A stretch of 64,000 nucleotides of DNA from the NCBI GenBank assembly GCA_964019055.1, contig OZ025211.1:9740400-9804399 (forward strand), in the 5' to 3' direction. Origin of the DNA: Anthopleura xanthogrammica. Its lineage: Eukaryota; Cnidaria; Anthozoa; Actiniaria; Actiniidae. A program made the position numbers and the translations under genes. Below, in pieces: positions 45,401 to 62,421 of this stretch; position 1 is the first letter of the stretch, and every line of letters starts with the position of its first letter. The notes beneath the pieces were generated by a model. That model was not told the DNA's origin and did not search any database. It worked only from the letters and a program-made list of their open reading frames with translations.

Positions 45401-48400
45401 CATCACAAGATGAAACTGTTGCCCCCTCTGAGAAAAACATGGTAATGAGATTTGATCAATTATTGAGCTATTACGGGAAACATCTTTGAAAAATTCCATG
45501 GCTAGTGTTCATGTTACAACATAGTTGTCATATTGGCTGAATCGAAGGAACACATTTTTTAATAGTTTCTTTTTGTTATCATTGTCAACCATCTTAACCT
45601 GACAGCCTGTGAGCCATACATCACGTTAAGGGAAAAATAAAACCTTCAGCTGGACGTCATGTTCTCGGTGCATATCATGTGGTTAAATGTAACTTACATG
45701 CTTACATTGACTTAAGAGGATACTATTGTTCTACATCCGGTTGTAGCTCGCGCATGGGAACTGCCTGATAACCACTTTTTCATATTTGTACGAAATATAA
45801 TGAAACTCATGCACCACATTGAAAATTATCGTGGAAATTGGAAATTTCTCGTATAGTGCGCAGGAAGCACTGATGCAACGTATTTGTGTAAAATTAAACT
45901 GAAGGTAAAGTTCTTAAAGGAAATAATTATACTGCTTTATTGGGATGGAGTTCAATGCTCCCCACTGGGGTGACTTTCCAAAAAGTAGTGCTCATTACTA
46001 AGATAATGTGCTTCATTATTTCTTTTTTTTTTCTTTGTCCCTCCCATTTCCCCCACCCTTTTCCCCTGACTTGCTAGGTTTCGAAATGCTGTTTTTATTT
46101 CCCTTGTTGCTTTCAATCTCAAGATATTAAGCATTTGTATGCTTGTTTGCCAACCAGCAGAGCCTTGGTCAAGGGACTTTGGGCTGATTTGATTCGATGT
46201 TGATGTGATATATCAACATGTGACTGTTTAATACAAAGGCCGATTAATTTGTGTAAAGTCGATTTAATGTTCCCCACTCAATCCCCTCCTAAAAGCAGTG
46301 CTTAATAGATAAATTGGTCTTCATTTCTTTCTTTATCCCTCCCATTTCCCTGTCCTTTTCATATGTTCTCAAGGTTTGAGAAGGTTTCTTACCGTCACAA
46401 GAAACAGAACTCAGCTTATCCACCCAGCTTGACAGATCATTAAAGTTGTCCAAAGTGAAGACATGAGTGCTATCAGGATCGGTGGCAATCTCATTCAGCT
46501 CCCTTCGATTGTAATTCCCAACACCAATAGAAAACACATTCACTCCTTGATTCTTGAGTGCATTGGCAGCCGACTTCACCCCCCAGCCATTGGAATACCC
46601 ATCAGTCAGTAACACTGCGACTTTGGGTACCCCTTTATCAGGCCTCATCCCATGGGCTTTGTTGAAAATGTCCGTTTTTGTCATTTCCAAGGCATCACCA
46701 GTGTACGTCCATCCAGCTCGATAGTAAATACCGCTGACTGCATTCTTGAGGGAGGTTTTGGAGTAGTAAGCCTTAAGGTTAAATTCGACTACAGGCCAGG
46801 AGGAGTATGTGACAACACCCACGTGTGTGCCAGTGGTACCAATGTTGAAGAAGTCGATGATATTTTTAACAAATGTTTTAATCTTTTCAAAATTGTAGCT
46901 TCCCACACTGCCTGATGTGTCGAGGATGAAAGCAAGATCTAGTGATGTCTGGCAAACTGAAAAGAAAATTCTCTTTTTAGCCAGAGGCCGACGTCTACAT
47001 AAAAAAGAGCAAAGATGAAGTGACGGATTTTCAAGGGTGGCGTAGAAGATAGTACACTTGCCTTTTACCTTTTACCTCTCACCTCTGGGGTCAAAAATTC
47101 GATTCCTGGACTCGGGTTCACATCCAAAGAAAGTTTGTTCGGTCTTTTCCTTGATTCGAGGGATTTTCTCCGGGTTTTCCGGTTTTCCTCCCAACGCAAA
47201 TCCTAACACCGGCTAAATTCCAATTTGATCTGTGAGTCAGGTGTGCCCTGACTTAGATCAACCCAGAGGTAGTTTCAGGGTATCGTTAAAAAAGTTTTTT
47301 TAAGGTTAATTTATGCAACCTAAGAATAGACTGAATTAATTGTCTATCGCTCATAAACAGCAAATTTCTTTTCTCCTGTTGGATAAGAGCTGAAACTAGT
47401 CTACTTTCAGTTGTTTATGTCCATTGTTGTGTTTCAAATGACGGAAACACTTTGCTCATCTTTTTCTCGTTTCTTTGCCACAGGCAACCCATCTATCACC
47501 ATGTACCCTACTCACCATCTCTTATCACACTCGCATGAACGTAGTTGTTTTGGGTGTATTTTATCCAATCAAATCCCGACTGCACGGCAAGACCTGCTAG
47601 TTCTCCAAGTTTTCCTACGTCGTTGTCATCGACTACCAGCTGTACAGCTCGACCTGAAAGGGACAAGAACATCAGGCCAAATATAGTTAAAATGAAACAT
47701 GTTTGAATTCTGACTAAATTTTATTAGACTTGGGATTACATTTGAGACGCTTATTCTTAAGAATTATCGAAATATTGTTATGTAAGTCGCAGTGTTTTTG
47801 GTGACAATAGAAAACCCACAGGACTCATTCCACTTCCATAGGTGGTGGGTACCGGGTAACCACACCCCGACTGTAAAAAATTGTCTTGATCTTATCTTTT
47901 AGGTTCAAAACTTTCAAATCCCCATAATATGTGATCCGCGTTTTGGGAAACAGCTAGAAAGAAAACTATTATTAACATTTTTGTTAGTTGCCCTATATGC
48001 ATAAGTGTTTTAGATGGTTATTCTTAAGGAAGAATGATTAACGATTTCGTCTCGTTGCCACCCCTCCAAAACGCAAAGCACTATGAAGATGTGAAAGTGG
48101 TGAATTCATAGTCGATCAGTAGAAGGGACTGGGGCAGGTGCCTTGTAACTGTGGTTTACTGGTTCATTTGCGATGGAAGATTACGAAACTATCTTATATT
48201 TATTGAGAAGGATTTTTTTTGATATGATGACAGCTACAAAGAAATGGCGCGACATTGATGACAATGGTGTCATCACTCAACAATAAAGAATACAACCCGA
48301 CAAGCAACAAGCCAATACCACCTGCAAATAATGTTTTAATTAGCTAAATATTCGGGACAACACTTAAAGAATCGAAAGTTGCAGCCTACCATTACAAAAC

Positions 48401-62421: not shown

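Follow-up and report, generated by a model that had tools for sequence, protein, structure and literature searches.

Among the proteins that have been put forward as evolutionary antecedents of Hedgehog is hedgling. In the sea anemone Anthopleura xanthogrammica, two hedgling copies, here called A and B, stand head to head, and they raise the question of whether the short copy B is a functional gene for a free Hedge-domain protein and, if so, what such a protein would do. We analyzed a window of 64,000 nucleotides (OZ025211.1, 9,740,400-9,804,399; assembly of 289.8 Mb in 125 contigs). Positions are given on the scale of this window, and the features are collected in Table 1. The organism is related to Actinia tenebrosa, copy A being 89% identical to the A. 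tenebrosa protein P0008.

Architecture of the two hedgling copies

P0008, a protein of 3,496 residues named 'dachsous-like', was placed on the locus by tblastn. With rows below 55% identity dropped, its residues 1-3495 tiled the minus strand from 50571 to 21152, and the biggest gap was five residues. At its 3' end, A has a segment corresponding to the membrane helix of P0008 as well as an SH2 domain (E = 1.1e-9), and on the basis of tiling, helix and SH2 domain we conclude that A is a complete hedgling ending in SH2, a large transmembrane protein by homology to P0008. This bears out its description as the full-length membrane form by an earlier reading of the window made from the sequence alone. 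PF00017 also appears among the domains listed for the Acropora and Actinostola proteins and for some other relatives. In the head of A, Pfam detected HH_signal (E = 1.6e-35) and three cadherin stretches, with many more cadherins downstream. The feature start of 47516 proposed by the sequence-only reading had to be revised, being just the low end of A exon 2; the seven exons of A that match B reach 41966, and the gene extends to about 21.15 kb.

Copy B was correctly recognized in that reading as an inverted copy of exons 1-6 and part of exon 7 of A. It consists of seven coding exons with the same phases as those of A and GT/AG at all internal junctions, and its frame stays open over 1,992 bp, encoding 663 residues and a stop. 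The exon lengths had been described as identical but for one 3-bp difference; the one in exon 3 was found as described, but it is not the only one, since a second lies inside exon 7. B matches P0008 residues 1-656, and other cadherin repeats of P0008 cross-match B exon 7. In the next ∼51 kb to the right of B, the P0008 search gave no further hedgling at E ≤ 1e-3.

Pfam placed HH_signal (E = 1.3e-34; Hedge at residues 37-164) and VWA (E = 3.1e-49; residues 175-346) next to each other in B, followed by two cadherin stretches, the best of which lacks the first 27 profile positions. The six Pfam matches of B included no Hint family. B retains the signal-peptide region, and no membrane helix was seen after it: the highest 19-residue hydrophobicity past residue 30 was 1.14, against 3.07 for the P0008 helix. 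The copy thus ends before any membrane anchor, as had been proposed, and its product is predicted to be soluble and secreted. Because there is no helix after the signal peptide, B is a truncated hedgling paralogue and not a Hedgling in the strict sense, which is a large transmembrane protein.

Table 1. Positions of hedgling features in the 64-kb window
Feature	Position	Strand	Coding length (bp)	Remarks
Copy A, full-length hedgling	21152..50571	-		Hedge, VWA, cadherins, Ig, EGF, membrane helix, SH2; tblastn of P0008, Pfam of head and tail, Ig/EGF from P0008 Pfam list
A exon 1	50205..50571	-	367	Signal peptide, first part of Hedge
A exon 2	47516..47653	-	138	Rest of Hedge
A exon 3	46393..46956	-	564	VWA
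A exon 4	45302..45427	-	126	
A exon 5	44599..44732	-	134	
A exon 6	43251..43411	-	161	
A exon 7	41966..42861	-	896	First cadherin repeats; copied in B only in first part, to A 42387
A putative 5' signals	50592..51166	-		TATA-like stretch begins at 51166; donor of noncoding first exon ends at 51083, and exon after the acceptor starts at 50592
Spacer between duplication arms	51258..55203			3.9 kb; alignment block ends
Insert just before B core promoter	55259..55598	+		340 bp, no counterpart in A
B putative 5' signals	55614..55701	+		TATA-like stretch, donor of noncoding first exon (last base 55701); both match A
Copy B, short hedgling gene	56072..62421	+	1,992	663 residues; noncoding acceptor puts exon start at 56051
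B exon 1	56072..56438	+	367	
B exon 2	57011..57148	+	138	
B exon 3	57598..58164	+	567	VWA; one codon longer than A
B exon 4	60359..60484	+	126	
B exon 5	60915..61048	+	134	
B exon 6	61561..61721	+	161	
B exon 7	61923..62421	+	499	Six codons and TGA past end of A homology at 62400

The matching arms of the duplication cover ∼51257-42387 in A and 55204-62400 in B. Upstream of the start codon, both copies have a CCAAT/TATA-like stretch, then a CAG/GTACGT donor and a TTGCAG acceptor (first base after it 56051 in B and 50592 in A), which we infer to represent a core promoter and a noncoding first exon conserved in both copies. The 340-bp insert has three partial relatives in the genome and no Pfam match in its reading frame; we take it to resemble a retroelement fragment. 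Repeats in and around the genes include a long CTGT simple or tandem repeat in A intron 5 (43614-44051), a tandem or simple repeat array between the two genes (53786-54780), an ATTT array in B intron 3 (59690-59990) and, downstream of B, a stretch of ∼200 bp (62843-63051) that is part of a dispersed repeat with matches in many places, some with an inverted partner (40 of 2,545 candidates scored). Two inverted repeats lie further left, one at 8827-9122/9301-9596 (arms of 296 nt, 99% complementary) and a larger one at 17408-18006/18525-19123 (599 nt, 89%).

Nothing in the data spoke for an assembly artefact or a haplotype inversion. The window contains no Ns, with both copies on the same gap-free stretch of one contig, noncoding sequence has diverged by 15%, and intron lengths, over six introns, are very different (B/A: 572/2551, 449/559, 2194/965, 430/569, 512/1187 and 201/389). 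We therefore rejected B as a haplotype copy, and give an artefact of either kind a next to negligible probability. Searched with PF01085 at E ≤ 1, the whole assembly gave eight exon-level matches (seven first-look candidates, all scored), which we grouped into four loci, namely A, B and two taken as Hh genes, and it showed no third hedgling copy. The other two HH_signal loci (G000:C1:22357181-22357879 and G000:C6:797007-797794) are probably the anemone's two Hh genes; one of these matches has an internal TAG, perhaps at an intron edge.

Constraint on copy B

Noncoding sequence of A and B could be aligned over 1,744 sites, of which 244 are mismatched (corrected divergence, 0.155), and the alignment contains 41 gap openings. 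Over 1,965 aligned exon sites we counted 152 mismatches and only two gap openings, both of 3 bp (6 bases in all), and no stop. Across 653 codons, dN was 0.060 and dS 0.163, so that dN/dS, the check suggested together with the original description of the pair, came out at 0.37, well below 1 (bootstrap range, 0.27 to 0.51; 0 of 1,000 replicates at ≥1). The agreement of dS with the noncoding divergence supports its use as a neutral yardstick. The longest run of identity between A and B, 103 bp, goes beyond chance (p = 0.006; 8 aligned blocks used, 6 of 14 dropped), and may reflect either unevenly distributed constraint or local gene conversion, which could have depressed dS. Unusually long near-identical stretches lie at 57051-57197 and 62019-62121, one of them running into intron 2, and are possible traces of gene conversion. 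Exon 2 shows seven amino-acid-changing and no silent differences at 32 silent sites, where zero would be expected in ∼16% of cases by hand arithmetic, so that we attach no weight to it.

These figures also bear on whether B, having been constrained for long, is now decaying or unexpressed and has no present function. With half the indel rate assigned to the B branch and two-thirds of indels counted as frameshifting, ∼15 frameshifts would be expected had B been neutral throughout and ∼3 had it been neutral for the last fifth of its branch; none was observed, and every splice dinucleotide of B is intact. Neutral simulations remained free of stops in 0.6% of runs at a branch length of 0.078 (n = 2,000), in 7.7% at 0.04 and in 17.6% at 0.027. 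Since stop-free runs are frequent on a short neutral branch, the lack of stops is by itself compatible with a recent loss of constraint. A chance open frame was ruled out by the stop and indel arithmetic together with the HH_signal and VWA E-values. Taken together, the pattern of substitutions and indels strongly indicates that B has been maintained as a coding gene through most of its history.

Decay would also fit several features of the gene itself. The exon 7 acceptor of B is weak (score of -4.4, in the 62nd percentile of all AGs, against -0.6 in A), the 340-bp insert sits in front of its promoter, and no AATAAA was found downstream before 65237, the variants TATAAA and ATTAAA occurring at 62571 and 63662. 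A weak acceptor is found in A as well, where that of exon 3 scores only -3.2. Retention of B intron 6 would lead to an immediate stop, with a product that is still predicted to be secreted.

The distant AATAAA is also what one would expect if B formed the 5' portion of a chimeric gene transcribed through into exons further right. No GTAAG or GTGAG donor was present among the GTR sites listed for 61923-62600, however, no A-like exons were found in the ∼51 kb to the right, and an ETS-domain exon stands on the opposite strand. We rejected such a gene on account of the donors and the ETS exon, and consider it very unlikely. The ETS-domain exon, at 65714-66079 on the window scale (L009:1714-2079, minus), limits the 3' end of B.

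Faster change in B and the metal-side loops of its VWA domain

With A. tenebrosa as the reference, 41 changes fell on B and 19 on A (p = 0.006), a count without the 15 sites that have a different residue in each of A, B and A. tenebrosa; over the stretch common to both copies, A and P0008 agree at 562 of 653 aligned residues. Splitting the changes in the 41:19 ratio and sharing silent change equally, branch dN/dS would be ∼0.5 on B and 0.23 on A. Six sites that are invariant in six other sequences (A, A. tenebrosa, Acropora, Montipora, Desmophyllum and Dendronephthya) differ in B, namely G187V, R248K, N291D, G292S, V295A and S401N; the corresponding number for A is four. Both the faster change and the six altered sites could reflect relaxed selection, and with them the decay of B keeps some plausibility, although in view of the missing frameshifts and the intact splice sites we regard it as somewhat unlikely.

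What we take to be the metal motif of the VWA domain, DTSGS with T254 and D287, is kept in B. Around it, changes that were assigned to B or left unassigned were concentrated in the metal-side loops, at 9 of 35 positions against 9 of 138 elsewhere when loops were drawn from the motif (p = 0.003) and at 7 of 23 against 11 of 164 when they were drawn from a predicted structure (p = 0.002), in tests that were post hoc, framed after the change list had been seen, and that dropped the inserted residue of B. Changes assigned to B alone gave 8 of 35 against 8 of 138 (p = 0.005) for the motif-based and 5 of 23 against 11 of 164 (p = 0.03) for the structure-based loops. The changes of A itself in the three metal-side loops numbered 0 of 35 and 0 of 23. 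The structure model of the B VWA exon, of moderate quality (mean pLDDT of 73, five sequences), served only to place the loops. We regard the loop changes as a lead, which may point either to an altered choice of ligand or to relaxed constraint.

Our attempt to date the duplication relative to the Actinia split failed, the informative sites being nearly even (4/3/3 with Actinostola and 5/5/5 with a four-outgroup consensus); a tree joined B with A. tenebrosa at only 70%.

Likely role of B and comparison with known systems

We consider B most likely to be a functional short paralogue whose product is predicted to be secreted. It stems from an inverted partial duplication of the hedgling gene, in which coding exons 1-6 and the first part of exon 7 were copied and, judging by the alignment, probably the promoter and noncoding first exon as well. 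At the breakpoint, the frame meets a stop six codons past the second cadherin repeat, so that the predicted product is a soluble Hedge-VWA-cadherin head without anchor or SH2 domain. Outside the cell, this head would most likely act through its VWA metal site and cadherin repeats, either as a competitor for the partners of A or as a matrix-bound adhesion molecule, and its binding preference may have changed, as suggested by the altered loops around the metal site. That B is such an inverted partial duplicate, kept as a soluble head that acts extracellularly and is probably not a Patched ligand, is the interpretation we favor with reasonable, though limited, confidence. A bolder version, in which a truncating duplication gave the animal anew a secreted Hedge-VWA protein resembling the choanoflagellate ones and the VWA binding face was rewritten by selection, making B a new extracellular ligand or antagonist beside full-length hedgling, appears rather doubtful.

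B could instead be a mobile Hedge signal for Patched, having a signal peptide and a Hedge domain but no anchor. Neither A nor B, however, has the complete zinc site (His, Asp, His) of Hedgehog: the position of the Asp, which we take to be one of three zinc ligands, is Q in A and M in B. The calcium site is not kept either, the stretch we presume to form it aligning with a four-residue gap. Because both metal sites are incomplete, a Patched-type role is disfavored. Without a Hint family, B would not acquire cholesterol, and the first Cys of the mature protein lies well inside, at residue 42, which leaves no palmitoylation site of the Hh type. Secreted Hh-domain proteins of Salpingoeca rosetta have been proposed as ligands, according to PMC4054682, but on balance we hold a Patched ligand to be highly improbable; a decoy or matrix-binding head seems the likelier role for B. 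Of the suggestion that B offers a second route to a mobile Hedge ligand, the free Hedge head thus survives as a prediction; the Patched-type role is weakened, and, given the S. rosetta proteins as described there, the route is not new in kind. Hedgling without the complete motif is also described in PMC6027127 and PMC8052667.

In Nematostella, hedgling is expressed in the gastrodermis of the primary polyp and is listed among the Wnt/PCP components of the polyp mesoglea (PMC12549020). The hedgling literature available to us contained no statement of a binding partner for the Hedge head. A natural, constrained soluble Hedge head beside the membrane form would be a ready reagent for finding that partner, and B illustrates a simple route from a tethered to a free Hedge domain without Hint processing.

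No mention of a short animal hedgling paralogue was found in the mostly non-subscription literature covered. Two protein searches for short relatives, over a limited range of protein lengths and with 7,995 candidates sharing most words scored in the first, gave six and seven proteins, three distinct ones being cnidarian hedglings; none from Actinia was among the proteins scored. Predicted hedglings of Desmophyllum pertusum (P0002; 760 aa), Dendronephthya gigantea (P0003; 589 aa) and Paramuricea clavata (P0048; 356 aa, named partial) resemble B in having a signal-peptide-like start, Hedge and VWA and no membrane-helix-like segment. They are 59%, 50% and 54% identical to A, respectively, and could be real short forms or cut gene models. 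P0011 of Montipora capricornis (2,637 aa) is hedgling-like, with no membrane-helix-like segment and no SH2 domain, and is possibly a cut model or a secreted form.

Compared with Hedgling of cnidarians, sponges and choanoflagellates, of which A is a full member, the paralogue B has the same signal peptide, Hedge, adjacent VWA and first cadherin repeats, but has none of the further cadherins and no Ig, EGF, membrane helix or SH2. According to PMC2362128, Nematostella has a single Hedge-VWA gene, predicted to encode 3,592 residues, in which Hedge lies on two exons, and the domain is likewise spread over two exons here (A 50205-50571 and 47516-47653), in contrast to a single-exon statement in PMC8052667. 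With Hedgehog, B shares the Hedge domain, but differs in having no Hint family, incomplete metal sites, and VWA and cadherins. Closest in predicted form are three small Hh-domain proteins of S. rosetta, which, according to PMC4054682, possess a signal sequence but not a membrane helix, could serve as ligands that are secreted and, like all Hedglings, carry the Hh domain immediately beside VWA. By prediction, B has the same N-terminal signal sequence, lack of a helix and domain neighborhood; it differs as a truncated animal hedgling with cadherin repeats, the likeness being one of described architecture. Given this choanoflagellate precedent, a secreted Hedge-VWA protein is not new in kind.
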